Part shown: piece by piece, positions 694 to 33,671 of the stretch | Numbering within the stretch: the stretch's first letter is position 1 | Layout of the letters: each line of letters opens with the position of its first letter | The notes under the pieces: model-generated | Told to the model about the DNA's origin: nothing | The model's input: only the letters and a program-made list of their open reading frames with translations | Database searches by the model: none | Translations under genes and position numbers: made by a program | Assembly (NCBI GenBank): GCA_005880795.1 | Contig: VBGP01000008.1 | Location: forward strand, 92,681-156,680 | From: Chloroflexota bacterium | GTDB taxonomy: Bacteria > Chloroflexota > Dormibacteria > Dormibacterales > Dormibacteraceae | DNA length: 64,000 bases | Reading direction: 5' to 3'

Positions 694-1797
694 ATGTCCG
701 GCGAGGGGCTGTCGTACGCCGCGGCCGGCGTCGACATCGAGGCGTATGAGCGTGTGCTGGAGCGCGTCAAGCCGCTGATCGCAACGACGCACGGCAAAGA
801 GGTCGCGGTCGGCGTCGGGCCTTTCGCCGGGCTCTACGCGCTGCCGGGCGGCGGGCATCTCGCCGCCAGCGCCGACGGTGTGGGGACCAAGATCAAAGTC
901 GCCATCGCCGCCGAAAGCCATCGCGGGATCGGCGTGGACATCGTCGCTCATTGCGTTAACGACATCGCGACCGCCGGCGCCCGACCGCTCTTTTTTCTCG
1001 ACTACTTCGCGACCGGTCAACTGGATCCCGAAGTCTTCTCCGAGCTGGTCGAGGGCATGACCGCGGCGTGCCGCGAAGCGGGATGCGCCCTGCTCGGTGG
1101 GGAGACGGCCGAGATGCCCGGTATGTACGCCCTTGGCGACTACGACCTCGCCGGCTTCATCGTCGGCCTGGTCGATGCAGGCTCTCGTCGAACTGCCGTC
1201 GGGGCGGGTGATGTCCTGCTCGGTCTTCCGTCGAGTGGCCTCCACACCAACGGGTACTCGCTCGTGCGCAAGGTGTTCGAGGACGTGCCTCTCAGTCATG
1301 TCTTCCCGGAGCTGGGAAAGCCGCTAGGAGAGGTGCTGCTGGAGCCGCACCGCTCCTACCTCGCGGACCTGAACGGCCTCCACTGGAAAGGCGCTGCGCA
1401 TGTCACGGGCGGGGGCATCCTGGGCAATCTTCCACGCTGTCTACCAGAGGGCCTGGGCGCGCGGCTGGATCGGGGTGCGTGGCAGGTTCCGCCGATCTTT
1501 GACCTGGTGCGCCGGCGCGGCAACATCACGGACGACGAGATGTTCGGAACGTTCAACATGGGACTTGGCATGATCGTGGTGGTCGACCGAGCCGACGTTC
1601 CCGGACCGGGCCGGATCGGGTGGAGATCCGCTGAAACTCGGGATTTGCGTCTCCGGCAAGGGCAGCAACCTCCGCAACCTCGTCGAGCTCGGATTCGACG
1701 TCGTCGCGGTGGCGACCAACCGACCATCGTGCGCAGGCGCCGCTTTCGCGCGCGAGCGCGGCATCCCGCTGGCGGAGCTCTCGCAGAGATCTTTTGA
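694..1797 (+). CDS. purM: Phosphoribosylformylglycinamidine cyclo-ligase, frame lesion near the C-terminus
   Basis: PurM closes the imidazole ring (FGAM to AIR) in purine synthesis. Recognisable motifs include SADGVGTK near residue 60, LLGGETAEMPGMY near 145, LPSSGLHTNGYSL near 180 and HVTGGGILGNLPR near 235. Homology stops after GLGMIVVVDRADV (about base 1596); the remaining Arg-rich tail to 1797 is purN DNA read in another frame. In frame 0 the DNA just downstream reads TGPDRVEIR and stops at TGA 1632-1634, a plausible native PurM end. I infer that roughly 20 codons plus a frame-changing number of bases are missing near 1596-1602. Either this copy is damaged or the assembly has a local deletion. 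The start ATG overlaps the second purF stop. Confidence 0.85.
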   Translation: MSGEGLSYAAAGVDIEAYERVLERVKPLIATTHGKEVAVGVGPFAGLYALPGGGHLAASADGVGTKIKVAIAAESHRGIGVDIVAHCVNDIATAGARPLFFLDYFATGQLDPEVFSELVEGMTAACREAGCALLGGETAEMPGMYALGDYDLAGFIVGLVDAGSRRTAVGAGDVLLGLPSSGLHTNGYSLVRKVFEDVPLSHVFPELGKPLGEVLLEPHRSYLADLNGLHWKGAAHVTGGGILGNLPRCLPEGLGARLDRGAWQVPPIFDLVRRRGNITDDEMFGTFNMGLGMIVVVDRADVPGPGRIGWRSAETRDLRLRQGQQPPQPRRARIRRRRGGDQPTIVRRRRFRARARHPAGGALAEIF

Positions 1798-2203
1798 CTC
1801 GGCCGAGCAGCGTGATGTCGCCATGCGCGATTTCTTCATCCGGCATCGAGTGGAGCTCGTTGTCGACGCCGGTTACGACCGCATCCACACGGCCCCGTTC
1901 CTTGAAGCATTCGAGAGCCGGATCATCAACGTTCACCCCTCGCTTCTGCCGCAGTTCAGCGGGGGGATGGACGCCATCGAGCAAGCGCTGGAGAGCGGAG
2001 CCAGCCAAACCGGTGCGACGGTCCACGTCGTGACCTCTGAGCTGGACGCGGGCCCAATCCTGCTCCAGGAAGCGGTCTCGATCATGGAAGGCGAAACGGT
2101 GGAGACTCTTCGCCAGAAGCTGCACGAGGCCGAGTACCGGATCCTCCCCGCGGGGATCAGGCTGATGGAGGCGCGACTTGCCAACAGCCCTCTTATCCGT
2201 TAG
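1631..2203 (+). CDS. purN: Phosphoribosylglycinamide formyltransferase, probable CTG start
   Basis: PurN transfers a formyl group from 10-formyl-THF to GAR. The conserved N-terminus (LKLGICVSGKGSNLRNL) begins exactly at a CTG; the frame has no ATG, GTG or TTG between the stop at 1571 and 1709, and a start at 1709 would remove the phosphate-binding SGKGSNL loop. The CTG forms a CTGA overlap with the presumed original purM stop. Catalytic features are present: the Asn/His pair in INVHPSLLP and Asp in TSELDAGPIL. About 190 residues, slightly short because the segment after the first helix is compact. It overlaps purH by 26 bp. Confidence 0.88.
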   Translation: MKLGICVSGKGSNLRNLVELGFDVVAVATNRPSCAGAAFARERGIPLAELSQRSFDSAEQRDVAMRDFFIRHRVELVVDAGYDRIHTAPFLEAFESRIINVHPSLLPQFSGGMDAIEQALESGASQTGATVHVVTSELDAGPILLQEAVSIMEGETVETLRQKLHEAEYRILPAGIRLMEARLANSPLIR

Positions 2204-3704
2204 CGACAAGAGCGGACTCACCGCTTTCGCCCGCGGGCTCAAGCGCCTCGGTTACGACCTCTTCGCCACAGGAAGCACCTTGCAGGCCATCGAGGACGCG
2301 TCGCTTGACGTCCAACCGGTGAGCGACCTGACGGGCTTTCCCGAGATGATGGACGGCCGGGTCAAGACGCTGCACCCGGGCGTCCACGCGGGCATTCTGG
2401 CCAGGCGCGACAAGCCGGAGCACCTGGAAGCGCTGGCCCAGCACGGGCTGCGCGAGATCGACCTCGTTTGCTGCAATCTGTACCCGTTCATCGACACCGT
2501 CGTCGGCGAAAAGGTCACCTTCGAGGCTGCCATCGAGCAGATCGACGTCGGCGGTCCGGCCATGATTCGCGCCGCGGCCAAGAACCACCAATCGGTGGTC
2601 GTGGTGGTGCGGCCGGAGCGATATTCGGAGGTCCTCGGAGCGCTCCACGAGGGAGCGCTCGACGAACCCGCGCGGAGAAGCCTGGCGGCCGAGGCTTTCG
2701 CGCACACATCTGCTTACGACGCCTGGGTCGCCGCCTACATGAGAAGGGATGCACGCAACGGCTTCCCGAGCGAGCTCACCATCCCGGGCCAGCTCGCCGA
2801 ACCGCTCAAATACGGCGAGAACGAGCACCAGAAGGCTGCTTTCTACCGGCTGGGTCCAGATCCCGGAGGCCTCGGTGGCGCAGTGCAGGTGCACGGTGGG
2901 GCGCCCGGGTTCAACAACCTCCAGGACGCCTCGGCCGCCTACCAGCTCGTGATGGATTACGCCGAGCCGGCCGCGGCGATCGTCAAGCACATGAACCCTT
3001 GTGGGCTCGCGGTCGCGCAAGACGCGGCCACGGCGTATCGGATGGCCTTTGAATGCGACAAGGTCTCTGCCTTCGGCGGGATCGTTTCTATCAACCGGCC
3101 GCTCGACCGCGCGACCGCCGAGCAGATCGTGCAGATCGTCACGCACGTCGTGATCGCGCCCAAAGTCCTCGATGAAGCAAGGGATGTCCTAGCGCGGCGC
3201 AAGAACATGATCGTCCTCGCGGCCCAGCCGGCGCACCAGGGTCTGTTCGACTATGACGTCCGCTCGGTGCCTGGTGGCTTCCTGGTGCAGGAGTGGGACC
3301 GCGCCGGTTTTGACCGGTCGGCGTGCAAGACCGTAACCCGCCGCGCCCCGACCGAAGAGGAATGGCGACAGCTGGGACTCGCCTGGACCGGCGTCAAACA
3401 CGTCAAGTCGAACGCGATCGTGCTTTTCAAGGACGACGCAGCGATCGGTGTCGGCGCCGGCCAGATGTCACGCGTCGAGGCGGTTCAGCTTGCGGTGCAG
3501 CGGGCGGGGGAGAGGTCGCAAGGCGCGGTCATGGCTTCGGACGCGTTCTTTCCGTTTCCTGACGGCCTCGAGCTGGGCATTCGCGCCGGGGTCACCGCGG
3601 TGATCCAGCCTGGCGGTTCAATGAAGGACGCCGACGTGATCGCGGCCGCCGACGCCGCCGGCATCGCGATGGTGGTGACGGGCCGCCGCCACTTCAAGCA
3701 TTGA
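2178..3704 (+). CDS. purH: Bifunctional AICAR transformylase / IMP cyclohydrolase
   Basis: PurH carries out the last two steps to IMP. The 508-residue length is full for the family. The N-terminal MGS-like cyclohydrolase domain is seen in LLSVSDKSGL, FATGSTLQAI and GRVKTLHPGVHAGIL; the transformylase domain contains KYGENEHQKAAFY and the KHMNPCG active-site segment, ending with GRRHFKH. It begins with TTG at 2178 inside the purN 3' end, giving MPTALLSVSDKSG, the usual family start. It is coupled downstream to kynA by a TTGA overlap. Confidence 0.97.
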   Translation: MPTALLSVSDKSGLTAFARGLKRLGYDLFATGSTLQAIEDASLDVQPVSDLTGFPEMMDGRVKTLHPGVHAGILARRDKPEHLEALAQHGLREIDLVCCNLYPFIDTVVGEKVTFEAAIEQIDVGGPAMIRAAAKNHQSVVVVVRPERYSEVLGALHEGALDEPARRSLAAEAFAHTSAYDAWVAAYMRRDARNGFPSELTIPGQLAEPLKYGENEHQKAAFYRLGPDPGGLGGAVQVHGGAPGFNNLQDASAAYQLVMDYAEPAAAIVKHMNPCGLAVAQDAATAYRMAFECDKVSAFGGIVSINRPLDRATAEQIVQIVTHVVIAPKVLDEARDVLARRKNMIVLAAQPAHQGLFDYDVRSVPGGFLVQEWDRAGFDRSACKTVTRRAPTEEEWRQLGLAWTGVKHVKSNAIVLFKDDAAIGVGAGQMSRVEAVQLAVQRAGERSQGAVMASDAFFPFPDGLELGIRAGVTAVIQPGGSMKDADVIAAADAAGIAMVVTGRRHFKH

Positions 3705-4447
3705 GCCGCCGCTTCGGGGAAGAGGGCCGCCAGCTTTCCTATGGCACCTATCTCAAGGTGCCCGAGCTCCTTTCGCTGCAGCAGGGCCTCAGCCAGGAGC
3801 ATGACGAGCTCCTCTTCATCGTGGCCCACCAGGCCTACGAGCTGTGGTTCAAGGTCGTCCTGTTCGAGCTCGAGGCGGCGCGGGACCGGATCGATGCCGG
3901 CGACATCTTCTTCGCCCGCCACCACCTGCACCGCGTCCACGTCATCGAAGAGCTCCTGGTCGAACAGATCGAGGTCCTCGAGACGATGTCGCCGCAGGAC
4001 TTTCTCGCCTTTCGCTCCAAGCTCGCCCCGGCGAGCGGATTTCAGTCGGTGCAGTTCCGCGAGATCGAGTTTCTCTCGGGCCTGAAGGAGCCCAAGTACG
4101 TGGCCCGGCTGGAAGCGACGCCCGAAGAGTTGAGCCGCCTGACGAGGCGCCTCGAAGAGCCTTCGGTGGACGATGCCTTTCGCTCTCTAATCGAGCGACG
4201 AGGCGCGCCCTCGCTGCTCGAGATCTTTCGGGACCGAGACCGGTATGGCGACCTGTTCGACCTGTGCGAGGGACTGCTCAACCACGACGAGACGTTTGCC
4301 CACTGGCGGGCCCGGCACGTGCTGATGGTCGAGCGCCAGATCGGGAGCAAGACGGGGACCGGTGGCAGCAGCGGCGCTGAATATCTTCGCTCCACGCTGG
4401 GCAAGCGTTTCTACCCAGAGCTGTGGGAGGTTCGGTCGCAGCTGTGA
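3701..4447 (+). CDS. kynA: Tryptophan 2,3-dioxygenase
   Basis: This heme enzyme opens the indole ring of tryptophan to N-formylkynurenine. Family motifs are LSYGTYLKVPELL, HDELLFIVAHQAYELWFK, GFQSVQFREIEFLSG and, at the end, RHVLMVERQIGSKTGTGGSS, which contains the proximal heme histidine and the substrate-binding GTGGS loop. At 248 residues it is a little shorter than many relatives. The TTG start overlaps the purH stop (TTGA), so it is cotranslated with purine genes, an unusual placement; no other kynurenine-pathway gene is in the window. Confidence 0.95.
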   Translation: MSRRFGEEGRQLSYGTYLKVPELLSLQQGLSQEHDELLFIVAHQAYELWFKVVLFELEAARDRIDAGDIFFARHHLHRVHVIEELLVEQIEVLETMSPQDFLAFRSKLAPASGFQSVQFREIEFLSGLKEPKYVARLEATPEELSRLTRRLEEPSVDDAFRSLIERRGAPSLLEIFRDRDRYGDLFDLCEGLLNHDETFAHWRARHVLMVERQIGSKTGTGGSSGAEYLRSTLGKRFYPELWEVRSQL

Positions 4448-4653
4448 CTTCAAGAAAGGGCGCCAATTCCGCACCCGCTGACCTGTTTCCTGGTGAGCGT
4501 CCTGAGCACCACATGAAGAAGGCGCAGGCCGAGCGGCCGCGGGTCACGTGCGGTTCCTGCCGGAAGTTCGACGGCACCGCGTGGTGCCGTCACTGGAACT
4601 TCCACACCACGGCGGAATCGCCGCCGTGCAGCTTCTACGCCAAACGCCCGTAG
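4444..4653 (+). CDS. Small four-cysteine protein
   Basis: A 69-residue protein whose GTG start overlaps the kynA stop (GTGA), making it the last gene of the purine/kynA operon. The C-terminal half carries CGSCRKFDGTAWCRHWNFH followed by SPPCSFY, a Cys-x2-Cys...Cys...Cys set with His and Trp that could bind zinc or iron. I do not recognise a named family. The upstream in-frame GTG at 4423 would put codons inside kynA and is less likely. Its last codons (ESPPCSFY) are duplicated 208 bp downstream. Confidence 0.7.
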   Translation: MTSRKGANSAPADLFPGERPEHHMKKAQAERPRVTCGSCRKFDGTAWCRHWNFHTTAESPPCSFYAKRP

Positions 4654-4712
4654 ACGTTCTCAGCGTCTGTGTCCTGGTCTCGCGTGAGCCAGGAGTCCTT
4701 TGTGAAGCTGAA

Positions 4713-4731
4713 GCCCGGATTTACTCCGGGC
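4713..4731 (-). repeat. REP-like hairpin, copy 1
   Basis: On the minus strand the sequence is GCCCGGAGTAAATCCGGGC, a perfect 7-bp stem with a 5-nt loop. It aligns base for base with the hairpins at 7600-7618 and 63050-63068 (consensus GnCCGGrrTrAAyCCGGnC). Flanks GACG before and TTCAG after resemble the flanks of copy 3. Confidence 0.6.
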
Positions 4732-4786
4732 GTCCCCTGGTTGCGCAGTAGCGACTCCAGTCAGCCTCTATGTCAAAGGGGGGTCC

Positions 4787-4812
4787 CGCGGGGGGATCCT
4801 GATCCCCCCGCG
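4787..4812. terminator. Strong G/C hairpin between convergent transcription units
   Basis: CGCGGGGGGATC pairs with GATCCCCCCGCG (12 bp, two-base centre). It lies between the kynA operon and the convergent MFS gene, so a bidirectional terminator role is plausible, but there is no T-run. It could equally belong to the repeat insertion around it. Confidence 0.45.
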
Positions 4813-4856
4813 CCTTATGGCGGAATCGCCGCCCTGCAACTTCTACTCGAAGCCCC

Positions 4857-6263
4857 TTAGGCGGCTTCCTCGACCGGCGCTTGTTCGCGGATCACCACAT
4901 CGGTGTTGCGCGTGCGCAGCACAGCCAGCACGACCACGAGTGCCGCGGCGACGCAGAGCGCCGCCAGGACGTACGCCATCTGAAAGGCAGCGTATCCCTG
5001 CGCGTGCGAGGTCGAGATCGACGTGATCGATGCAAGCCCCAGCGCTCCACCGACCTGCATCACGACATTGCTGAAGCCCGAGCCCAGGCCCGCGTCTCGG
5101 AGCGGAACCTCGGACATCGAGATGGTGAGCAGCGGCAGGAAGGACGATCCTGCGCCCGCCCCGAGCAGAACGTAGGCGGCCAGCAGGACCGGCGCGTAGC
5201 CTGCCGCGGGACCTGCGTTGGACAGGATGGTCAGGGCAGCGACGATGCCTGCCAGTCCGGCCATCAGAAGGTTGCGGGGTCCGACACGAGCCATGAGCCG
5301 CGCGGCGATGCCACTCGACATGACCCCGATCATCAGCGTGGTTGGCAGGAAAGCCAGCCCAGTCTCGAACGCGCTGTAGCCGCGCCCGTGCTGCAGGTAG
5401 AGGGCTCCGACGAAGAAGTTCACGAAGAGGCCCGTGAACAAGAGCGCCCGGGCGCCGGTGGCACCCATGAGCGAGCGTATGCCGAGGATGCGCATCGGCA
5501 TCAACGGGTTCCGCAGCCGCGACTCGAGCAGGACGAACACCGCCAGCAGCCCGAGGGCTGCGCCCACCAGGCCGAGGGTGTGAGGTGACGTCCAGCCGTA
5601 ATCCGTCGCGGTCACGATGCCGTACACGCCGAGCATCAACGACGCGGTGATCAGGACGGCGCCCAGCAGGTCGACGCCCTGGCTCAAACCGAGCCCCTCG
5701 TTCTCCTCGATCAGCCACGCGCCCAGGACGAGGGTGGCCACGCCGATCGGCAGGTTGATGAAGAAGATCCAGTGCCAGTTGATCCACTCGGTCAGGAATC
5801 CACCCGCAAGAAGTCCCAAGGAGCCGCCACCGGCGATGACGAGCGTGAAAACGCTCATCGCCTGGGCGCGCTCAGCCGGCCGCTGGAACTCCGTGACGAT
5901 GATCGCGATGATCACGCCTGCTGAGAGCGACCCCCCCAGGCCCTGCAGAAATCTACCGACGATGAGGTTGTCGGCCCCCTGGGAAAACCCGCTCCCCACC
6001 GAAGCGACTGTGAAGAGGAACACGCCAGCCAGGAAGACCTTCCGGCGGCCGATCAGGTCGCCGACGCGGCCGGCCACCAGCAGGAAGCCTCCGTAGGCGA
6101 TCAGATAGGCGTTGACCACCCAGGTCAGGTTGGCCTGGCTGAACCCGAGGTCGCGCTGGATGTAGGGCAGCGCAACGTTGACGATCGTCGAGTCGAGCAT
6201 GATCATGAGCTGCCCGAAGCACACGACGACCAGGGCCATCCACCTTCTGAGATTTGCGTTCAT
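4857..6263 (-). CDS. MFS multidrug efflux transporter (DHA2, EmrB/QacA type)
   Basis: A 468-residue, probably 14-helix proton-driven drug exporter in the inner membrane. Motif A is seen as GRVGDLIGRRKVF after helix 2, and the DHA2 motif C region as GGGSLGLLAGGFLTEWINWHWIFFINLPIG. I chose ATG 6263 (MNANLRRWMALVV) because GGAGG sits five bases upstream; the ORF track's TTG at 6275 lacks such a site. It is divergent from a marR gene across about 117 bp containing an inverted repeat, the usual arrangement for MarR-controlled pumps. Confidence 0.9.
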   Translation of the reverse strand: MNANLRRWMALVVVCFGQLMIMLDSTIVNVALPYIQRDLGFSQANLTWVVNAYLIAYGGFLLVAGRVGDLIGRRKVFLAGVFLFTVASVGSGFSQGADNLIVGRFLQGLGGSLSAGVIIAIIVTEFQRPAERAQAMSVFTLVIAGGGSLGLLAGGFLTEWINWHWIFFINLPIGVATLVLGAWLIEENEGLGLSQGVDLLGAVLITASLMLGVYGIVTATDYGWTSPHTLGLVGAALGLLAVFVLLESRLRNPLMPMRILGIRSLMGATGARALLFTGLFVNFFVGALYLQHGRGYSAFETGLAFLPTTLMIGVMSSGIAARLMARVGPRNLLMAGLAGIVAALTILSNAGPAAGYAPVLLAAYVLLGAGAGSSFLPLLTISMSEVPLRDAGLGSGFSNVVMQVGGALGLASITSISTSHAQGYAAFQMAYVLAALCVAAALVVVLAVLRTRNTDVVIREQAPVEEAA

Positions 6264-6293
6264 AACCGCCTCCAAATGACCGAACCGATGCGA

Positions 6294-6319
6294 GGATGAT
6301 CACTATAACAGGATCATCC
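6294..6319. promoter_or_regulatory. Candidate MarR operator
   Basis: Inverted repeat GGATGATC - 10 nt - GATCATCC in the MFS/marR divergent promoter region. A TATAAC-like -10 lies in the spacer. Symmetry and position suit autoregulation and pump repression by the adjacent MarR protein; binding is inferred. Confidence 0.6.
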
Positions 6320-6380
6320 CGATCCTTATTGCATGGATTATCCGCAAAGGTGGGAAGGTTAAGAATCAGTGATAACATCA

Positions 6381-6836
6381 ATGGACGTGAAGAAAGACGA
6401 AGCAAAGTCGGATCTGGGCTTTGTCTCCCTGCTGACCCAGCTGTACAAGGCGATGAACCGCCGGACGAGCGACGACCTGTTGGGCATGCGGTTCAAGCCA
6501 TACCTGACGCTTGGCTACATCCGAGACCACCCGGGCACCAGCCAGCAGGAGCTGGAGAGCTCGTTGTTCATGGACGCCAACTCGGTGGTCCTGATCCTGA
6601 ACGAGCTCGAAGCGGCCCAGTTCTCGATCCGGCGGCGGGACCCGAACGACCGCCGGCGGCACATCGTCGAGATCACCGCGTCAGGCCGGCGTGCCCTCGA
6701 CCGCGCCGACAAGGCCCGGGAGAGCCTCGAGGACGAGGTCCTGAGGGCGCTTTCGGCCGACGAACGCAGGACGGTCCACAAGCTCCTGGAACGGGTCCTG
6801 GACAGCCTGCTGACGGCGCCTGCCGCCCGGGTCTGA
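6381..6836 (+). CDS. MarR-family transcriptional regulator
   Basis: A 151-residue winged-helix repressor from ATG 6381 (GTG 6369 would add four residues). The recognition region TSQQELESSLFMDANSVVLILNELEAAQ and the wing with RRRDPNDRRRHIVEITASGR are typical MarR features, flanked by helical dimerisation segments. It is divergent from the MFS pump and likely controls it. The inducer is unknown. Confidence 0.92.
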   Translation: MDVKKDEAKSDLGFVSLLTQLYKAMNRRTSDDLLGMRFKPYLTLGYIRDHPGTSQQELESSLFMDANSVVLILNELEAAQFSIRRRDPNDRRRHIVEITASGRRALDRADKARESLEDEVLRALSADERRTVHKLLERVLDSLLTAPAARV

Positions 6837-6851
6837 CCCGGGAGGCCCCTC

Positions 6852-12378: not shown

Positions 12379-13305
12379 GTGGCAATCACGTCGCGTATGC
12401 GCCATGTGATCGAGAGTCAGCAGTTCAGCCGCACCCTCCTCGAAGAGCTGTTCGCGCGCGCCGACGAGATCAAGCGCGAGCCGCACAGGTTCATGGGTCG
12501 CCTTGCGGGCCTGGTGATGGCGGCTCTCTTCTACGAACCGTCGACCCGCACCCGGCTTTCCTTCGAGGCGGCGATGCTCCGGCTCGGCGGCCAGACCATG
12601 GGCACCGACAACGCCCGCGAATTCTCCTCCGCGGCCAAAGGCGAGACTCTCGAGGACACCATCCGCATCGTGAGCGGGTACGCAGACGTGATCGTCTTGC
12701 GTCACAGCGAAGAAGGAGCGGCCAAACGCGCGGCCGCGGTCAGTGACGTCCCGATCATCAATGCGGGCGACGGCCCGGGCCAGCATCCAACTCAAGCCCT
12801 TCTCGACCTGTTCACCATCCGGGCCGAGCTAGCGAAGATCGACGGCGTGCGCGTGGCGATGGTGGGCGATCTCGCCAACGGCCGGACGGTGCGCTCGCTC
12901 GCCTATCTCCTCAGCAAGTTCAAGGACATCAAGCTCTGGTTTGTCGCTCCGCCTCAGGTGTCGATGCGCGACGACCTGAAGGCGCACCTGGACGAGCACC
13001 ACGTGTCCTACACCGAGACGCAGGACCTCGACGCGGTGCTGCCGGAGGTCGACGTCGTCTATATGACGCGCATCCAGAAGGAGCGCTTCACGGACCCGGC
13101 CGTGTATGAGGCGATCAAAGGCATCTACCGCATCGACAAGAACGCGATGGCCCGCATACGCAAGTACGGCGTCCTGATGCATCCGCTGCCGCGCGTCGAC
13201 GAGATCTCGCCCGAGGTCGATGACGACCCGAGGTCCGCTTACTTCCGCCAGGCGCGCAACGGCCTACATATCCGCATGGCCTTGCTGGATCGCCTTCTCT
13301 CATGA
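12379..13305 (+). CDS. pyrB: Aspartate carbamoyltransferase catalytic subunit
   Basis: Makes carbamoyl-aspartate in pyrimidine synthesis. The 308-residue protein has the carbamoyl-phosphate loop YEPSTRTRLSFE, GDGPGQHPTQALLD and HPLPRVDEI. The GTG start follows GGGAAGGAG. It leads pyrB-pyrR-carAB-pyrK-pyrD; no pyrC or pyrI is present in the window. It couples to pyrR by an ATGA overlap. Confidence 0.97.
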   Translation: MAITSRMRHVIESQQFSRTLLEELFARADEIKREPHRFMGRLAGLVMAALFYEPSTRTRLSFEAAMLRLGGQTMGTDNAREFSSAAKGETLEDTIRIVSGYADVIVLRHSEEGAAKRAAAVSDVPIINAGDGPGQHPTQALLDLFTIRAELAKIDGVRVAMVGDLANGRTVRSLAYLLSKFKDIKLWFVAPPQVSMRDDLKAHLDEHHVSYTETQDLDAVLPEVDVVYMTRIQKERFTDPAVYEAIKGIYRIDKNAMARIRKYGVLMHPLPRVDEISPEVDDDPRSAYFRQARNGLHIRMALLDRLLS

Positions 13306-18142: not shown

Positions 18143-18156
<14 letters not shown>

Positions 18157-18901
18157 CGCGTCGATAACCGGTCGTCGCCAGGTTGCGCGCGGCATGTTCG
18201 TCATCGGTATGCACGGGCCTGAAATCGCGTCCACCGTCCGGGCGGGCCAATTTGTCAATCTCGGTTGGTCTCCGGGTCCCCTGCTGCGCCGTCCGTTTTC
18301 CGTCTATCGCTCGGACGGGGAGCACATCGAGGTCGTGCTGAACGCCGTCGGCACGGGAACCGCGCAGCTGCTTGGAATGGACATCGGCGAACACGTCAGC
18401 TGCCTCGGCCCGCTTGGCCGCGGTTTTGAGATCAGGCCCGGGATCCGAACCGCCGTGCTGATCAGCGGCGGCCTGGGCGTGGCGCCGATGCCACTCGCGG
18501 CCAGGGATGCGCGCCAGGCGGGTGCGCATGTCACGTGGGTTCACGGCGCGCGGACCGCGGTCGAGCTGTGCTCGGAGACGGAGGGCGATGAGGTCATCTG
18601 GGCGACCGACGACGGAACAGAGGGTTCTCGCGGCACGGTGGTAGCGGCGGCTCCTCAAGCCGAGGTCGTGCTCGCGTGTGGCCCGAACCGTATGCTCGCC
18701 GCGGTCGCCGAGAGGTGGCCGGAAGCGCAGGTCGCCGTCGAAACGTATATGGGTTGCGGGACCGGCGTCTGCCTGGGCTGTGCGGTGCCTCTCAAGCGCG
18801 GGGGATACGACCGCGCCTGCAGGGAAGGCCCGGTCTATCGCGCCGCCGACATCGACTGGGGCGCCCTTCCCTCACACCTTTCGTACGCGGTCACGAGATG
18901 A
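18143..18901 (+). CDS. pyrK: Dihydroorotate dehydrogenase electron-transfer subunit
   Basis: PyrK passes electrons from class 1B PyrD to NAD+. The 252-residue protein has the FAD motif RRPFSVY, NAD-domain [10 protein letters not shown], and the C-terminal [2Fe-2S] set [10 protein letters not shown]...C. It overlaps the carAB 3' end by 14 bp and pyrD by ATGA. Confidence 0.95.
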
Positions 18902-23830: not shown

Positions 23831-24307
23831 ATGATCCCCAACGTGGCCAGGATCCGTGAAACGATCGAGATCGACGCCCCGACCGAGCGGGTATGGGCGG
23901 TGGTCGCGGAGGACGTGAAGAACGCGCCGAAGTGGACCTCCTACCTCGAGAAGGTGGAGAAGCTCGACGACGGGCCTCCGGGCAAAGGCACACGGTACCG
24001 CTACTTGCTGAACCTCCCCGGTGGAAACAAGGTGAGGCTCGAGGTGGAGCAGGACGTCTACAACAAGTCGACGAGATGCGCCGGCAGGTTCATCAAGGGG
24101 CCGCTCAAGGGGACCTGGTCCTATGTCTACACCGGGCGCAAGGACGGTTCGACCCGATTGGCCTACGAGATGGACTACGAGCTCAGCGGGCTGCTTCGTT
24201 TCGCCGGCGGGCTCCTGGGGCCGCAATACGCGGCCGGGATTCACAAGAACATGGAATCGCTGAAGCGCTACATCGAGTCGGGCAAGGGGCCGAAGCCTAA
24301 GCAATAA
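23831..24307 (+). CDS. SRPBCC (START-like) ligand-binding protein
   Basis: A 158-residue polyketide-cyclase/dehydrase-type protein: RETIEIDAPTERVWAVVAEDVKNAPKW at the N-terminus and an amphipathic C-terminal helix (NMESLKRYIE). Likely binds a hydrophobic ligand. ATG 23831 is eight bases from the start of the divergent MFS gene, so each promoter must lie in the other's coding DNA. Its stop region overlaps ridA (convergent) by 11 bp. Confidence 0.8.
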   Translation: MIPNVARIRETIEIDAPTERVWAVVAEDVKNAPKWTSYLEKVEKLDDGPPGKGTRYRYLLNLPGGNKVRLEVEQDVYNKSTRCAGRFIKGPLKGTWSYVYTGRKDGSTRLAYEMDYELSGLLRFAGGLLGPQYAAGIHKNMESLKRYIESGKGPKPKQ

Positions 24308-24680
24308 CCGCTTCGGCTTCGATCTCGACCTTCCAGCGTTCGTCGATGAGGTCTTTGACCACGACCATGGTGGCGACCGGTCGCGCGTTGGCCATGGCCT
24401 CTCCGTGGGCCTTGCCCACTGCATCGACCCAGTCCAGGCCCGTCACATACATGCGGGTCCTCACCACCTGGTCGAGCGAAGCGCCGGCCTCGGCCAGCGC
24501 GTTGCCGATGATCTCGAAGCAGCGCTTGGCCTGGACGTATGCGTCGGATTGAACCGAGCCGTCGGGCCAGACCGGCGCCGTCCCCGCCACCATGACGCGG
24601 TCGCCGATGCGGATCGCGCGGCAATAGCCGAATGATTTCTCGAACGGATTGCCGGAGCTGACTCGCTGCCTGGAATTCAG
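24297..24680 (-). CDS. RidA/YjgF-family protein, probable CTG start
   Basis: A 127-residue RidA-like protein; RidA enzymes deaminate reactive enamine/imine intermediates. Family features: SSGNPFEKSFGYCRAIRIGDRVMVAGTAP at the start, RTRMYVTG with the conserved Arg, and ATMVVVKDL...KVEIEAEAVIA at the end. The ORF track gives a much longer shadow start; the only start-like codon at the proper place is CTG 24680, which makes a CTGA overlap with the stop of the upstream gene. Confidence 0.85.
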   Translation of the reverse strand: MNSRQRVSSGNPFEKSFGYCRAIRIGDRVMVAGTAPVWPDGSVQSDAYVQAKRCFEIIGNALAEAGASLDQVVRTRMYVTGLDWVDAVGKAHGEAMANARPVATMVVVKDLIDERWKVEIEAEAVIA

Positions 24681-25135
24681 GGCTTTCGAAATGGGAGCAG
24701 CTCGAGCTGCTCGAAGCGGTCGTCGACCGCGGTGCGCAGCTCGATGACAAGCGCCTTCAAACGCTCTTGGGCGGCGGTGTCTGAGATGTTGACCACACGA
24801 ATCCGGCGGAGCGCCGTCTGCAAGGCGTACAGTCCGGCCGCCTCGTTGCCATTCAGACGCGCAGCGGCATTGCGAATCTCGCGAGCCACGTCCTCGTGAC
24901 CGTGTGCGCGCATCCAGTTGGACAGGCGGCCGGCGGCGGCGACGACCCGCTGCGTCTTCGGGTTGAGGGCCGCGGGCACGACCTCCACCGGCCGGCGCGA
25001 CGGGAAAACAGACGCCACCTTGCCCGGGTGGCGGAAAGAGGCGATGCGCCGCATCACGTTCCCTGGCCCCAGCATCACGACGATCCCTGCTCCAACCAGA
25101 AGGAAGACGAGGAAGCCCACGGCCGCATCGAGCAT
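24677..25135 (-). CDS. Single-pass membrane protein, unknown function
   Basis: A 152-residue protein with an N-terminal hydrophobic helix (VGFLVFLLVGAGIVVMLG) and a soluble helical remainder rich in Ala, Arg and Glu. I recognise no family. It is the first gene of a two-gene unit with ridA. TAACCT lies eight bases before the ATG. Confidence 0.65.
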   Translation of the reverse strand: MLDAAVGFLVFLLVGAGIVVMLGPGNVMRRIASFRHPGKVASVFPSRRPVEVVPAALNPKTQRVVAAAGRLSNWMRAHGHEDVAREIRNAAARLNGNEAAGLYALQTALRRIRVVNISDTAAQERLKALVIELRTAVDDRFEQLELLPFRKP

Positions 25136-26944: not shown

Positions 26945-27055
26945 TCAACAACCCGGCTCGCCATAGTTGCCGCAGCAACCCTTCCCTCCGCTCTTTCTCC
27001 GCAGGTTGTTCGAGAACACTCGCAGCCGTTCGAGCGGGCCATACGACCCCGCCAT
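26945..27055 (-). CDS. Very small Cys-rich protein ending CCGNYGEPGC
   Basis: A 36-codon frame from ATG 27055. The first 25 residues are basic (ERLRVFSNNLRRKSGGKG) and the end is CCGNYGEPGC, an unusual low-probability tail that looks selected. I see no strong ribosome binding site, and the frame stays open upstream to 27148, so the start is uncertain. The rest of the gap between the quinone reductase and lipoprotein genes holds nothing else I can identify. Confidence 0.45.
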   Translation of the reverse strand: MAGSYGPLERLRVFSNNLRRKSGGKGCCGNYGEPGC

Positions 27056-27099
27056 GAAATTGCTGAAGAGGCTACGCGGCGAGGGACGCGCTGTGCGAC

Positions 27100-27492: not shown

Positions 27493-28193
27493 CGTGCCAG
27501 GGCCTGCTCCAGCGTGATCCGCCCTTCGTAGAGCGCCTTGCCCAGGATTGCCGCCTGCGCTCCAGCCGCGGCTACCCGGGTGAGGTCGTCTAGCGAAGCC
27601 AGGCCCCCCGAATACTGCAGGTCGACCTTGGTCATCTTGCGGACTCGTGCGAGCGTTTTCAAATCCGGACCGGACATCGTGCCGTCGCGGTCGATGGAGG
27701 TCAGGATCACTCCGGCGAGGGGGAGAAATTCCCAGCGGCCGACGAGTGCGCCAACTGAGACCGGGTCGGTATCGAGCCATCCGCTCACGGCGGCTTTGTT
27801 GTCCCGGACGTCGAGCGCGGCCAGGACCTGACCTGGGTGCTTGATCGCGCATCGCTCAAAAAGGTGAGGGTCGCGCACCGCGGCGGTAGCCATCACCACC
27901 CAGTGCGCGCCGCCCTCGAGCAGCGCATCAACCGCTTCAACGCTGCGCACCCCGCCCGCAACCTGCAGCTCGATGCCGGGCAGCTCGAGGATGCGCGCGA
28001 TGACGGGCATGTTGCTCGCGGAACCGCGTGCAGCATCCAGGTCGACTACATGAACGCGGTGCGCACCGGCGGTCGTGTAGCGCTGCGCGACCTCCACAGG
28101 ATCGTCCGCATAAACGATCGGGTGGTTGTAGTCGCCCTGGGTCAGACGCACGCAGCGGCCGCCGAGGATGTCGATCGCGGGAATGATCAGCAA
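27489..28193 (-). CDS. hisA: ProFAR isomerase
   Basis: A 234-residue TIM barrel for the fourth step of histidine synthesis. Catalytic Asp in IIPAIDILGGRCVRL and second Asp in LTSIDRDGTMSG; phosphate loops AGGVRS and YSGGLAS; GKALYEGRITLEQAL end. In Actinomycetota a close relative (PriA) also does the TrpF reaction; I cannot separate these by eye. TTG start with TAGCCT seven bases upstream. No other his gene adjoins it; hisC is 29 kb away. Confidence 0.93.
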   Translation of the reverse strand: MLIIPAIDILGGRCVRLTQGDYNHPIVYADDPVEVAQRYTTAGAHRVHVVDLDAARGSASNMPVIARILELPGIELQVAGGVRSVEAVDALLEGGAHWVVMATAAVRDPHLFERCAIKHPGQVLAALDVRDNKAAVSGWLDTDPVSVGALVGRWEFLPLAGVILTSIDRDGTMSGPDLKTLARVRKMTKVDLQYSGGLASLDDLTRVAAAGAQAAILGKALYEGRITLEQALAR

Positions 28194-28200
28194 CGCTTCG

Positions 28201-28206
28201 AGGCTA
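28201..28206 (-). promoter_or_regulatory. -10 element of hisA, leaderless layout
   Basis: TAGCCT (minus strand), seven bases before the TTG at 28193. Confidence 0.5.
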
Positions 28207-28213
28207 AATCGGG

Positions 28214-28705
28214 CTAACGGTAGTTCGTGAACTGAAGTGGGACGGGAATGTCCTCTGCTTCCCGCAGCGCCTTGATGACGAGCTGCAGCGAGTCCTTGTC
28301 CTTGCCCACGACACGGAGCTGGTCGCCCTGGATGCGGACCTGAACTTTGCTCGAGACGTTCTGAATCCGCTTGCGCAGGTCGCGCGCTATGTCATCGGTG
28401 ATTCCGGCGTTCAGGCGAACGTCGATCTGGCCGCGACCCTTGCCGACCGTCTTCGGGTCATCGGCCTTGAACAACTTGGGCGACAGCTGGCGGCGAGCGG
28501 CCTTCTCCCGCAGCACCTGGAGTGCGGCCTTGGCTCTGTCCTCACTCGCAGACTCGATGACGATGAGGTCGTCGCGAAGGTCGTAAACGGTCGCTGTGTC
28601 CTTGAAGTCGAAGCGAGTCCCGACCTCGCGGCGAGCCTGGTCGACGGCGTTCGTCAGCTCCGCGGGGTTGAACTCGGAGACGACGTCGAAGGAGTACTCG
28701 GCCAT
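28214..28705 (-). CDS. YajQ/DUF520 nucleotide-binding protein
   Basis: A 163-residue YajQ-family protein: SFDVVSEFNPAELTNAVDQA at the start, TRFDFKDT, and KVQVRIQGDQLRVVGKDKDSLQLVI near the end are diagnostic. Relatives bind RNA, nucleotides or cyclic di-GMP. It is two bases downstream of the next gene, so cotranscribed with it. Confidence 0.93.
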   Translation of the reverse strand: MAEYSFDVVSEFNPAELTNAVDQARREVGTRFDFKDTATVYDLRDDLIVIESASEDRAKAALQVLREKAARRQLSPKLFKADDPKTVGKGRGQIDVRLNAGITDDIARDLRKRIQNVSSKVQVRIQGDQLRVVGKDKDSLQLVIKALREAEDIPVPLQFTNYR

Positions 28706-28707
28706 GG

Positions 28708-29094
28708 TTACTGCGTACTGAGAATCGCCCGCAGCCCGATCACGACCGCCAGGACGGCGAGCGCCATGGCTGCCAGCGAGGAGATCGCAAGGAGGGCTCC
28801 GATGCCCGCGGTCGCCTCGTCCAGCGCCTCGGGTGGCGGCTTGTCATAAGGGTCGGGACCATAGTCGAGGTCGTACACGCCCTCCTCGCGCGCCCGCTCG
28901 ACGAGCTCGTCGAGGACGACCTTTCCGCCTGGCGGCAGAGCCTTGCCGTCGAGCTTAGAGACCGCCTCTTTCAGGTTGTCTCGGGTCCGTCCGAGCTCCG
29001 CCACCACCAGGTCCAGCGTTTGCGTCGCGGCTGGGGTCGGGTGTTCGCGGCGGAGGTCGGCGATGATGCCGTAAAGGCTCACGCCCGGATTCAT
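28708..29094 (-). CDS. Hypothetical protein with C-terminal membrane helix
   Basis: A 128-residue protein. Residues 1-65 are soluble and helical (LDLVVAELGRTRDNLKEAV), followed by an acidic Pro/Tyr/Asp stretch (DLDYGPDPYDKPPPEAL) and a C-terminal hydrophobic helix (LLAISSLAAMALAVLAVVIG). Not recognised. It precedes yajQ in one unit and is divergent from ilvE. Confidence 0.65.
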   Translation of the reverse strand: MNPGVSLYGIIADLRREHPTPAATQTLDLVVAELGRTRDNLKEAVSKLDGKALPPGGKVVLDELVERAREEGVYDLDYGPDPYDKPPPEALDEATAGIGALLAISSLAAMALAVLAVVIGLRAILSTQ

Positions 29095-29140
29095 AACAGA
29101 ATGAGGCAGCGCGGTGCAGGTGGGTAACCACCCGCCCTAA

Positions 29141-29146
29141 TACACT
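29141..29146 (+). promoter_or_regulatory. -10 element of ilvE, leaderless layout
   Basis: TACACT (within TAATACACT) seven bases before the ATG at 29154; no Shine-Dalgarno site. Confidence 0.55.
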
Positions 29147-29153
29147 TACTTCG

Positions 29154-30119
29154 ATGGGTGTGGAAACCAAACCGAAGGCTGCGGTGAAGAAGCCGTCGGC
29201 CCATCCGAACACGTGGGTCTTCTTCGAAGGCGAGTTCGCTCGGTACAACGACGTGAAGCTGGGCCTGATGACCCACGCACTCCACTACGGCACGGCTGTC
29301 TTCGAGGGCATCCGCGCCTACTGGAACGAAAAGAAGGGCCAGCTGTTCCTGCTTCAGGCCGCGGCCCACTACGACCGCATGCAACGCTCCGCCAACGTAA
29401 TGCGCATGAAGCTGCCCTTCTCGACTGAAGAGCTGGTCAACTTCACAGTCGAGCTGCTGCGCCGCAACGAGTTCAAGTCGGATGTATATGTTCGGCCGCT
29501 CCTCTACACGTCGAGCGAGGAGATCGGCGTCCGCCTCCACAACTTGAACCGCGGCTTTTTCATCTACGCCATCCCATTCGGCAACTACGTCGAGGTCGAA
29601 GCGGGCATTCGATGCATGGTCAGCACGTGGCGCCGCGTCCCCGACCAGGCGCTCCCCGCTCGCGCCAAGATCACCGGTTCCTACGCGCAGGCCGCGCTCG
29701 CCAAATCGGAGGCGGTGGAGAACGGTTTCGATGAGGCCATAGTCCTTTCCGTAGACGGCCACGTGTCGGAAGGCTCCGCCGAGAACCTCTTCATGCTCAA
29801 GGACGGCGGCTTCATCACCCCACCGGTGACCGACGACATCCTGGAAGGTGTCACGCGAAGCCTGCTGATCAAGGTGATCAAAGACGAGCTGAACTTGCCT
29901 GTGCTCGAGCGAAGCATCGACCGCACGGAGCTCTACACCTGCGACGAGCTGCTCCTTTGTGGGACGGGGGCGCAGATCTCGCCCGTGATCGAGGTCGACC
30001 GCAGACCTGTCGGTAACGGCCGGGTTGGTGAGTTCACGCAGGAGCTGCAGAACATCTACTTCGGCGCGGTCCGCGGCGACACACCGAAGTACAAGGACTG
30101 GACCATCCCCGTTTACTAG
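29154..30119 (+). CDS. ilvE: Branched-chain amino acid aminotransferase
   Basis: A 321-residue fold-IV PLP enzyme that makes Leu, Ile and Val from their keto acids. HYGTAVFEGIRAY, the Schiff-base lysine in PARAKITGSYAQAALAKSEA, and SEGSAENLFMLKDG are present. The lone 20-residue Lys-rich N-terminus precedes the usual family start. It stands alone behind a leaderless-type promoter. Confidence 0.95.
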   Translation: MGVETKPKAAVKKPSAHPNTWVFFEGEFARYNDVKLGLMTHALHYGTAVFEGIRAYWNEKKGQLFLLQAAAHYDRMQRSANVMRMKLPFSTEELVNFTVELLRRNEFKSDVYVRPLLYTSSEEIGVRLHNLNRGFFIYAIPFGNYVEVEAGIRCMVSTWRRVPDQALPARAKITGSYAQAALAKSEAVENGFDEAIVLSVDGHVSEGSAENLFMLKDGGFITPPVTDDILEGVTRSLLIKVIKDELNLPVLERSIDRTELYTCDELLLCGTGAQISPVIEVDRRPVGNGRVGEFTQELQNIYFGAVRGDTPKYKDWTIPVY

Positions 30120-30135
30120 ATGGCCGGTCCCCTTC

Positions 30136-30197
30136 CGGATAGTCCGGACTATCCGAGATTTGCGACGGACTTCATGGCGATTCGTCCGGACTAACCG
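30136..30197. promoter_or_regulatory. 20-bp perfect palindrome plus half-site before glycerate kinase
   Basis: CGGATAGTCCGGACTATCCG (30136-30155) is a perfect palindrome; GTCCGGACTAACCG at 30184-30197 repeats its right half with one mismatch, ending three bases before the ATG. A dimeric repressor could bind here and block expression; the protein is unknown. Confidence 0.6.
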
Positions 30198-30200
30198 AAC

Positions 30201-31334
30201 ATGGCGCCCGGGATGAAGGTGGTCGTCGCGCCCAACGCGTTCAAAGGAACCCTTACTGCCCCCCAGGCCGCGGCTGCGATTGCGCGTGGCGTCCGCGAGG
30301 TCTTTCCTGACGCTGAGGTTATGGAGGTTCCAGTCGCCGACGGCGGCGACGGGACGGTCGAGGCGCTGGTCACAGCCAACCGGGGCGAATACCTCACCGC
30401 GCAGGTCGAGGGTCCGCTCGGTGACCCTGTCACCGCCAGGTATGGCCGCATGGGCTCAGGCGCGGTTGTCGAGCTGGCCGCGGCCAGCGGCCTGGCGTTG
30501 ATTCCCCCCGAGCGCCGTGATCCCCGCCGGGCATCCACGTTCGGCTTCGGCCAGCTCCTCATGGCGGCGCGGCGGGACACCATCCGTCTCATCGTTGGAA
30601 TCGGCGGCTCGGCCACCAACGACGGGGGCGCCGGCATGGCGCAGGCCCTCGGCTACCGCCTGCTCGACAAGTCCGGCACGGACCTGCCGCGGGGTGGAGC
30701 AGCCCTGGCCCGGCTCGAGCGAATCGACGCCTCTGGGTTCAAACCGTGGGCGCCGGCGGTCGAGGTCAGGGTCGCCTGCGACGTGACCAACCCCCTGACC
30801 GGCTCCCGGGGCGCCAGCGCCGTCTACGGACCTCAGAAGGGCGCGGACAAGGCCGCCGTCAGGGAGCTGGACGCAGCCCTGGCCCGGCTGGCCGAGGTCA
30901 TCGAGCGCGATCTCGGCAAGCGCGTGGCGGATGTCCCTGGAGCGGGCGCGGCGGGTGGGACGGGCGCCGGGCTCATGGCCTTCCTCGACGCCTCGCTGGT
31001 CCCCGGCGCACCGCTCGTGGTCGAGGCGGCCGGCCTCGACGCGAAGCTGGCCGAGGCTGACCTTGTGATCACCGGCGAAGGCCGGGTCGACGAGCAGACC
31101 GCCTATGGCAAGGCCCCTGGCGAGGTGGCCAAACGAGCCCAGGCGGCCGGTGTGCCCGTGATCCTCCTGGCCGGAAGCAAGGGTCCGGGTTGGGAGGCGT
31201 TGACGCGGTCAGGCGTCACATCGGTCGTCACGCTCACGGACGGCGGCTCGGACCTGCGGCAGGCCTTAAACGACCCAGAGGGGATGCTAATCCGGGCCAC
31301 CGTAGTAGCCTGCCGCAGTCGTAAATGGACGTAG
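30201..31334 (+). CDS. Glycerate kinase (GlxK/GarK family)
   Basis: A 377-residue glycerate 2-kinase. VVVAPNAFKGTLTAPQAA, VADGGDGTVEAL, GIGGSATNDGGAGMAQALG and TGEGRVDEQTAYGKAPGEVAKRA are family signatures. The ATG at 30213 (MKVVVAPNAFKG) fits the family start better than 30201. It could phosphorylate glycerate made by the 2-hydroxyacid dehydrogenase at 58.7 kb. It overlaps the sigma factor gene by 10 bp. Confidence 0.93.
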   Translation: MAPGMKVVVAPNAFKGTLTAPQAAAAIARGVREVFPDAEVMEVPVADGGDGTVEALVTANRGEYLTAQVEGPLGDPVTARYGRMGSGAVVELAAASGLALIPPERRDPRRASTFGFGQLLMAARRDTIRLIVGIGGSATNDGGAGMAQALGYRLLDKSGTDLPRGGAALARLERIDASGFKPWAPAVEVRVACDVTNPLTGSRGASAVYGPQKGADKAAVRELDAALARLAEVIERDLGKRVADVPGAGAAGGTGAGLMAFLDASLVPGAPLVVEAAGLDAKLAEADLVITGEGRVDEQTAYGKAPGEVAKRAQAAGVPVILLAGSKGPGWEALTRSGVTSVVTLTDGGSDLRQALNDPEGMLIRATVVACRSRKWT

Positions 31335-32107
31335 AGGAAGACAAACCGGCGCCGCATGAAGGCCCCGGCCCGAGCGACGTCGAGCTGGTCAGGGCGTATC
31401 GGAACGGTGAAGTACACGCGTTCGAAGAGCTGCACAGGCGCTACGTCGCGTCCATCTACCGGCTTGTCCGCCGCAAGCTTGGCGACGCCCTGCTTGCCGA
31501 GGACATCGCGCAGGAAACCTTCATGAAGGCCCTCCGGATGATGGACCGGGTCGACGACTCGTTCAACTTCGGCGGCTGGATCCACACCGTCGCCCGCAAT
31601 CTTTGCTACGACGAGCTGCGGCGGCGGCAGCGGGATCTCCGGGCCGACGGCGCGACCGAAGAGGAAGACGACGAGCTGATGTCAAACCTGCCGTCGACGG
31701 CCAAGGCCTTCGACCCGGTCCAGGTCCAAGAATCGAACGAGACCCGCCGCCAGGTCTGGCACGTGGCGCAGCGATTGCCCGAGAAATACCGCCTGGTCCT
31801 GACGCTGCGCGAGCTCCAGGACATGAGCTACCGCCAGATCGCCCGCACCCTGAAGATGTCCGAGAGCGCGGTCGAGACGCTGCTGTACAGGGCGCGTCTG
31901 CGCTTCAAAGAGGAATACCTCGCCTCCCAGCGCGAGGGCGATCTCACCCACGAGGAGGCCGTGCCGCTGCTCGCGCCCTACCTCGCGGGAAAACTGCGCC
32001 GCCCGCAGGCGGAGGCAGTTCGAAACCACATCGCAACGTGCACCAAGTGCGCCCGCCGACTAGGCCGGAGAAAGCTCCGAGACCAGCGCAGGAGTGAAGC
32101 TAGATGA
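31325..32107 (+). CDS. ECF sigma factor with C-terminal zinc-finger-like extension
   Basis: A 260-residue group IV sigma factor. Region 2 (ELHRRYVASIYRLVRRKLGD, AEDIAQETFMKAL, FGGWIHTVARNLCYDELRRR) and region 4 (LPEKYRLVLTLRELQDMSYRQIARTL, SESAVETLLYRARLRF) are complete. After residue 200 the protein continues with THEEAVPLLAPYLAGKLRR and NHIATCTKCARRL, resembling the zf-HC2/ZAS domain normally found in separate anti-sigma factors (His...His-x3-Cys-x2-Cys). No separate anti-sigma gene is nearby. Confidence 0.9.
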   Translation: MDVEEDKPAPHEGPGPSDVELVRAYRNGEVHAFEELHRRYVASIYRLVRRKLGDALLAEDIAQETFMKALRMMDRVDDSFNFGGWIHTVARNLCYDELRRRQRDLRADGATEEEDDELMSNLPSTAKAFDPVQVQESNETRRQVWHVAQRLPEKYRLVLTLRELQDMSYRQIARTLKMSESAVETLLYRARLRFKEEYLASQREGDLTHEEAVPLLAPYLAGKLRRPQAEAVRNHIATCTKCARRLGRRKLRDQRRSEAR

Positions 32108-32129
32108 GGGTTAGTACAGTAGGTGTGAG

Positions 32130-32687
32130 ATGGCCAGGATAGTCGTTCGCTTTTTCGACGACGAGACCGTGGAAGGGGTCGCCCGCGATCTCGATTTCGA
32201 CGAACCCGACTTCCTGGTCGAGGTCGACGATGCCGGTGGCCTGGAGAACAACGAAACCGCCTGGATTCCCCTGACTGCCGTCAAGTGGGTGGAGCTGCAG
32301 CGCGACAAGGAGCTCGCCGACACCCCCACGCGCAAGGTCGCGATCCGCTTCCTCGACGGAGAGGTCCTGCGCGGTCACCTAGACGGCACCCTGGAGCGCC
32401 ACCGGTACGGGGTCGTGCTGCACCTGCACGCCGAGCAGAGCGACAGCCCGATTCGCAAGCTCGGCATCCCCTTCTCCGCGGTCAAGGCTCTGTTCTTCGT
32501 CCGCGAGTTCGACGCGCGGGGTGAGGAGGCGGGCACAGCCTCTGACGCCTACCTGGCGCGGCGGACGATGGCGCCCCTGCTCGACGTGCTCGAGGAGATG
32601 GACATGCTGACCCGACTCCATCGAGACGGCCTCCTCTCCGACCACGAATACGCGAGCAAGCGCACACTCGTTCTAGAGCGCCTCTAG
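32130..32687 (+). CDS. Conserved hypothetical protein with two beta-rich repeats
   Basis: A 185-residue soluble protein. Two related segments, VRFFDDETVEGVARDLDFDE and IRFLDGEVLRGHLDGTLER, each followed by a strand ending in IPLTAVKWVEL or IPFSAVKALFFV, suggest a duplicated small beta domain. The C-terminus (LDVLEEMDMLTRLHRDGLLSDHEY) resembles a SHOCT-type helix pair. Function unknown. TACAGT lies nine bases before the ATG. Confidence 0.7.
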   Translation: MARIVVRFFDDETVEGVARDLDFDEPDFLVEVDDAGGLENNETAWIPLTAVKWVELQRDKELADTPTRKVAIRFLDGEVLRGHLDGTLERHRYGVVLHLHAEQSDSPIRKLGIPFSAVKALFFVREFDARGEEAGTASDAYLARRTMAPLLDVLEEMDMLTRLHRDGLLSDHEYASKRTLVLERL

Positions 32688-32740
32688 GCCCTTTCCTCCC
32701 GATTTATGGGCAGGCGGCGGCGGAGCCGGCGGAGGGCCCG

Positions 32741-32746
32741 TAGAAT
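32741..32746 (+). promoter_or_regulatory. -10 element of pdxS, leaderless layout
   Basis: TAGAAT seven bases before the GTG at 32754, the clearest leaderless-type promoter in the window. Confidence 0.6.
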
Positions 32747-32753
32747 TTCGAAC

Positions 32754-33671
32754 GTGGCCGAACGCAACGGTGCCCGCGACGGGAACGGATCCGTCAAAGG
32801 GTCCTTCAAAGTCAAGGCAGGACTCGCCCAGATGCTGAAAGGCGGCGTGATCATGGACGTCGTCACGCCTGAGCACGCCCGCATCGCCCAGGAAGCCGGC
32901 GCATGCGCTGTGATGGCGCTGGAACGCGTGCCGGCCGACATCCGCAGGGAAGGAGGCGTGGCCAGGATGTCCGATCCGGACCTGATCAAGTCGATCATGG
33001 CCGCGGTGACGATCCCGGTCATGGCGAAGTGCCGGATCGGCCACTTCGTCGAGGCCCAGATCCTGGAAGCGCTCGGCATCGACTACATCGACGAGTCGGA
33101 GGTGCTTACCCCGGCCGACGAGGAAAACCACATCGACAAGCACCCGTTCAAGGTTCCGTTCGTCTGCGGCTGCCGCGACCTCGGCGAGGCGACACGGCGG
33201 ATCGCGGAAGGCGCGGCCATGATCCGGACCAAGGGCGAAGCGGGTACGGGCAACGTCGTCGAGGCGGTCCGGCACGCGCGCGCGGTCAACGCCGGCATTC
33301 GCAAGCTTCAGGGCATGAACCACGCGGAGCTCGTGCATGAGGCCAAGCAGATCGGCGCGCCGGTCGAGGTGCTCGCCGAGTGCCAGAAGCTCGGCCGCCT
33401 GCCGGTGGTCAACTTCGCGGCGGGAGGGATCGCGACGCCGGCCGACGCCGCGCTCATGATGCAGCTGGGGGTCGACGGGGTGTTCGTCGGGTCAGGCATC
33501 TTCAAGGCCGAGGACCCGTTGAAGCGTGCCAAGGCGATCGTCGCGGCGACCACCTATTTCGACAAGCCGGAAGTGCTGGCCGAGGTCTCAGCCGGGTTGG
33601 GCAAGGCCATGCAAGGCCTCGAGATTCCCGCCATCCCAAAGGACGAGCTGCTCGCTGCCCGAGGCTGGTAG
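32754..33671 (+). CDS. pdxS: Pyridoxal 5'-phosphate synthase, PdxS subunit
   Basis: Makes PLP from ribose 5-phosphate, glyceraldehyde 3-phosphate and ammonia. The 305-residue barrel has both reactive lysines ([12 protein letters not shown] and [12 protein letters not shown]). I chose GTG 32754; the ORF-track start at 32706 adds an Arg-rich run and lies upstream of the promoter. Paired with pdxT. Confidence 0.96.

Follow-up and report, generated by a model that had tools for sequence, protein, structure and literature searches.

The 64,000-nucleotide stretch of DNA analysed here (the window; contig VBGP01000008.1, positions 92,681 to 156,680) belongs to a 3.2-Mb metagenome-assembled genome (MAG) of Candidatus (Ca.) Dormibacterota, uncultured soil bacteria, and contains three genes, purN, ridA and pdxT, for which CTG had been proposed as the start codon. 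Comparison with related genomes makes it very probable that these and several further CTG codons are real starts recognized by an ordinary initiator tRNA (tRNA-fMet), and that CTG is regularly used in this family as a minor start codon, mostly through termination-reinitiation at gene overlaps, with guaB3 standing apart. The positions of these codons, their conservation, their alternation with ATG, TTG and GTG, the absence of rival starts and a normal tRNA-fMet were observed directly. Initiation at CUG is itself known; what the alignments support as new is that it is recurrent, conserved and found mostly at coupled joints.

The named relatives that encode the same PurN are Ca. Dormibacterota formerly labelled Chloroflexi CF_ MAGs, and the relatives searched included 16 of the same genus and 20 more of the same family. 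It should be noted that CTG is the most used leucine codon in the clade (44%), so that only alternation with other start codons, sharp boundaries of conservation and missing rival starts count as evidence.

CTG codons at three joints of the window

All three CTG sites lie where the original prediction had placed them, namely CTGA at 1631-1634 on the forward strand, CTGA at 24680-24677 on the reverse strand and CTG at 33655-33657 on the forward strand, and four of the ordinary NTGA joints (N, any base) that it listed proved correct in a spot check (ATGA at 13302, TTGA at 3701, GTGA at 4444 and ATGA at 34263). The CTG-initiated purN (1631..2203, forward strand) matches TIGR00639 above the cut-off as well as PF00551, and residue 2 of PurN aligns with position 2 of the TIGR00639 model, which places the CTG at the N-terminus of the family. 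In the window, no in-frame ATG, GTG or TTG is found upstream of the CTG back to the next stop. CTG is the only usable purN start in 21 of 29 family genomes, the remainder having ATG or TTG (one genome, G021, carries both TTG and CTG). It occupies either the PurN column itself or, in the g11 genomes, a position two codons upstream (CTG ACC CTC/CTT); wherever the column reads CTC or CTT, an NTG stands two codons upstream, which is CTG in two genomes and ATG in one. In five loci (G005, G006, G024, G031 and L212), the frame before the CTG is closed by a stop codon 5 codons away, so that any alternative start would have to be a codon within the conserved fold.

The purN CTG overlaps the purM TGA as CTGA in 18 of the 21 CTG-only genomes and in two further family records (L207 and L212). 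The identification of this CTGA as the purM stop was thus borne out in the family, but not in the window itself, where purM as assembled spans 694..1797 (forward strand; open reading frame list, Pfam AIRS). An alignment with three relatives revealed a 34-nt deletion in the window purM at 1601/1602, as a consequence of which the frame stays open to 1797 and the expected stop, TGA at 1632-1634, is not in frame as assembled; the overlap at 1631-1634, conserved in relatives, is therefore one with the ancestral stop. This deletion is either an assembly error or a true variant. In the three exceptions the script placed the purM stop elsewhere, at a downstream TGA in the window's genome (G000, owing to the deletion) and at upstream TGAs in G030 and G031. 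When an insert comes between purM and purN, purN starts with ATG, or once with TTG; the association between overlap and CTG gave p = 1e-6 in a 2x2 Fisher test that is uncorrected for kinship and counts G000, G030 and G031 as overlaps.

At the second joint, a RidA-family (Ribonuc_L-PSP) gene (24297..24680, reverse strand; PF01042, with TIGR00004 below its curated cut-off) would be initiated at a CTG that is overlapped by the TGA stop (24679-24677) of the upstream gene (24677..25135, reverse strand), which had been described as a membrane protein and has no Pfam match. No in-frame ATG, GTG or TTG occurs in the roughly 60 codons that precede the ridA CTG in the window, and the claim that purN and ridA lack any usable classical start held in the window as well as in the relatives with CTG. 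CTG was found in 15 of 16 family ridA loci, and several outgroup loci have ATG there or close by. According to a DNA-level alignment, the codon before the stop of the upstream gene ends in C, yielding CTGA, in 9/9 genomes.

The third case is of a different kind and not an NTGA joint: the alanine codon GCT (33654-33656) of pdxS (32706..33671, forward strand) forms the candidate pdxT CTG in the +1 frame, so that the genes overlap by 17 nt, and the match to the pdxT family model sets in about 14 residues downstream of the CTG, in contrast to the exact coincidence found for PurN. A CTG-initiated pdxT (33655..34266, forward strand; PF01174, TIGR03800) would thus carry an N-terminal extension of about 13 residues. 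In 24 of the 25 genomes with a placeable pdxS, the pdxS stop and the PdxT core are separated by spacers of 14 different lengths (13 to 94 nt) that all keep one and the same phase; the sole exception, G031, has its own GTG. The CTG requires that the pdxS alanine is encoded by GCT, which makes up 8% of the alanine codons of the clade; it is kept wherever readable in genomes with that frame, and two family genomes in which pdxT has a GTG or ATG of its own (G029 and G027) use GCC. In G010, TAG immediately precedes the CTG and no other NTG occurs before the core. The conserved phase and the rare GCT support CTG as the pdxT start, but the claim that pdxT has only CTG does not extend to several relatives with classical codons further downstream (see below).

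CTG-led genes across the family

A census of start codons comprised 131 genes, each represented in 5 or more genomes, with the G013 contig as reference, and was drawn mainly from one 150-kb region. Starts were called with a codon-position filter and a change-point method, used in place of an earlier crude conservation threshold that had picked shadow frames; conserved internal CTG columns (e.g. in census genes 180 and 191) were not scored as starts, and widening the census to genes with only 3 genomes gained little. Most genes have a classical start column. CTG-led starts with a sharp boundary were found for purN, ridA, guaB3, guaA and cofD, and in addition pdxT, i.e. for about 6 of 125 genes, and in the first five the CTG coincides with the conserved N-terminus and no in-frame AUG, GUG or UUG is usable. 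The codons at 4-nt joints were ATG 56, GTG 34, TTG 27 and CTG 19, the CTG codons coming from three joints (purN, ridA and cofD); guaA represents a fourth, missed by the joint-counting script. These four genes share a same-strand 4-nt stop/start overlap in relatives. Not every CTG start is of this type, guaB3 being led by a Shine-Dalgarno (SD) motif behind a divergent gene and pdxT having its 17-nt overlap.

For guaB3, located with a guaB query that ended in residues typical of the family and not read from the genome (the locations were used, the scores were not), the starts in 31 genomes were CTG 27, TTG 2 and ATC 2. The gene is preceded by its own -10-like TATAAT and a GGAG SD motif, and no same-strand coding gene lies upstream. 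The two ATC codons (L421 and L422, in G032 and G020 of genus g5) stand behind the same SD-like GGAG. The downstream guaA starts with CTG in 9 and ATG in 2 genomes; CTG forms a CTGA overlap with guaB3, and ATG is found when the two genes are apart. The cofD joint is CTGA (CGC TGA) in four genomes and ATGA (CGA TGA) in G005, and a downstream ATG is present in G003; a synonymous change from CGC to CGA in the upstream gene thus suffices to turn CTGA into ATGA. In addition, pyrK (18143..18901, forward strand), which has a GTG start in the window, has GTG 4, TTG 4, ATG 1 and CTG 2 in the same column of its orthologues, and single genomes have CTG at otherwise ATG, GTG or TTG columns of an SDR gene, folE and a metallo-beta-lactamase-fold gene.

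Alignment of the starts in sister genomes, the check suggested with the original prediction, thus showed that the NTG is kept, with CTG in most of the family and ATG or TTG elsewhere for purN, guaA and cofD, and with ATG in outgroups for ridA; guaB3, guaA, cofD and the sporadic cases extend the claim beyond the genes for which it was made. Judged by their conservation across many genomes and their alternation with ATG and TTG, the CTG positions are beyond chance.

Initiator tRNA, IF3 and infC

The GGG/CCC anticodon stem of the initiator tRNA, with its three G-C pairs, is intact in all tRNAs read, and an altered initiator tRNA of the M1 type (G30-C40 changed) was consequently rejected as the cause of CTG usage. 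In the genomes read of families f1 and f2, the D-loop of this tRNA is 2 nt shorter than in the E. coli form, and the f1 tRNA has a C1:A72 mismatch (L279:1291-1365; tRNAs were also read from L301-L330). Initiation factor 3 (IF3) looks ordinary.

Besides guaB3 (CTG/ATC), a conserved start other than ATG, GTG or TTG was found for the IF3 gene infC, which begins with ATA, ATC or ACG in relatives: apparently with ACG in the sister family f3 (L332, L340-L346, L350, L351 and L355) and with ATA or ATC in the remaining three. In some bacteria, IF3 represses its own gene via a non-canonical start (PMC5472188). By analogy with this autoregulation, the infC start would argue against a general loss of start-codon discrimination, of which, given also the intact tRNA stem, there is no sign. 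A CTG is present exactly 25 nt before the infC ATA/ATC start in 15/18 family genomes (L379 and 17 other loci); it opens a frame of 11 codons, typically L-N-x-x-E-V-x-x-H-x-V, which has a GGAG-like SD motif upstream and ends 8 nt inside infC, and which is possibly a CTG-started leader peptide coupled to IF3.

Mechanism, alternatives and known systems

Since most CTG starts lie at CTGA four-base overlaps or just inside the upstream gene, the ribosome that ends translation of the upstream gene most likely re-initiates immediately on the adjacent NTG. A weak CUG would be tolerated at such a joint because the terminating ribosome is already placed at the start, or it might serve to hold the second protein at a low and constant ratio; at purN, guaA and cofD, CTG goes together with overlap, which agrees with termination-reinitiation (PMC6728339). 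For guaB3, the SD motif, the promoter-like element of its own and a start that is CTG, TTG or ATC suggest that weak initiation has been selected and that the start is deliberately weak. We infer from these sequence comparisons that CUG initiates translation, and the re-initiation step and any regulatory purpose are deduced likewise.

A different explanation would be that each CTG is an ordinary internal leucine codon, with translation beginning at an upstream or downstream classical codon or another rare one. The abundance of CTG among leucine codons is in line with this, as are the downstream ATG, GTG or TTG codons of pdxT in some relatives; however, the open frame upstream of purN can be as short as 5 codons without any NTG, the purN column alternates between CTG, TTG and ATG and is compensated by an upstream NTG where it reads CTC or CTT, and codon-position conservation sets in at or near the CTG, which makes the explanation improbable. 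Programmed frameshifting at the stop, which would generate fusions (PurM-PurN, PdxS-PdxT and others) and make a start codon unnecessary, could account for the fixed frame of the downstream gene relative to the upstream gene, including the pdxT phase, but it is more improbable still, in view of guaB3 with no same-strand upstream coding gene, of the same genes being separated and ATG-started in relatives, and of the variable last upstream codons (CGC, AGC, ATC and CAC), among which no constant slippery site was seen. The chance of a sequencing or assembly artefact is negligible: the window is indeed from a MAG with a 34-nt deletion in purM, but for the CTG codons this is refuted by their recurrence in over 20 genomes that come from several projects and assemblies.

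Far more weight, though short of an even chance, has to be given to the possibility that CTG starts are real but common and unannotated at coupled joints in many high-GC bacteria, and hence not a trait of this lineage. This is compatible with the preferred explanation as to mechanism and bears on novelty. Start-prediction tools assume ATG, GTG or TTG (PMC5472188), and an N-terminal proteomics study of mycobacteria allowed CTG among the less common starts and described N-termini at UUG and CUG codons (PMC10653884). On the other side, Belinky et al. 2017 (PMC5622118) found four switches to CUG (two from AUG, one from GUG and one from UUG) in about 69,000 reconstructed ancestral starts (61,358 + 5,080 + 2,468), a count based on annotated genomes, and no sharp CTG-led gene was present among about 65 mapped start columns of the sister family f3, a sample that is small, partly duplicated and too limited for a lineage trait to be claimed.

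Several observations also weigh against the preferred explanation of genuine, mostly coupled CTG starts. A single CTG column is weak evidence where CTG is the commonest leucine codon, and the genomes compared are related and not independent. One ridA locus (G035) has no NTG. For pdxT, a downstream ATG, GTG or TTG is present in G001, G008, G013 and G016, and in G006 a TTG precedes the core by three codons; the CTG is thus not obligatory in these genomes. Moreover, coupling cannot be the whole account, because guaB3 lacks an upstream coupled gene. A bolder and rather doubtful extension would be that CUG is a standard fourth start codon, used by about 1 gene in 20, and that the set of genes started by CUG or ATC is biased towards purine and GTP metabolism (guaB3, guaA and purN, together with infC and its ATA/ATC) and kept weak on purpose, tuned by IF3 or by coupling.

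If about 5% of the genes in the lineage start with CTG, gene finders restricted to ATG, GTG and TTG will predict them too short or miss them altogether, guaB3, purN and pdxT among them, and studies that compare start sites on the basis of annotation will understate CUG use everywhere. Standard annotation is thus likely to get these core metabolic genes wrong, and other high-GC lineages may do likewise. The clade also supplies natural experiments showing in isolation what a CUG start does at a coupled joint, for example CGC-TGA versus CGA-TGA at cofD.

The joints resemble the overlaps described for termination-reinitiation (Huber 2019, PMC6728339) in having a four-base stop/start overlap between co-directional operon genes. 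That text names ATGA and TGATG with no mention of CTGA, whereas all four kinds of NTGA occur here, and orthologous joints have CTG in some genomes and ATG or TTG in others. Starts under IF3 control, such as infC (ATT, ATC) and Streptomyces sigR (GTC) (PMC5472188), are comparable to guaB3 in being conserved, non-canonical and possibly linked to low synthesis or IF3 sensitivity; they differ in that the codon here is CTG and not ATH or GTC and that several genes are concerned instead of one or two. The M1 variant of tRNA-fMet, in which G30-C40 is swapped and discrimination against CUG is lost (PMC11497404), represents a known route to a better-competing CUG, but one unlike the intact stem found here. 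In structures of CUG with the CAU anticodon, the second and third positions pair normally and the first does not (PMC11497404). As in the rare bacterial CUG starts reported so far (PMC10653884, PMC5622118, PMC11497404), fMet-tRNA would decode CUG, more weakly than AUG, GUG or UUG; those starts are scattered, whereas the ones described here are conserved at orthologous positions throughout a family and predominate in about 5% of the genes analysed.

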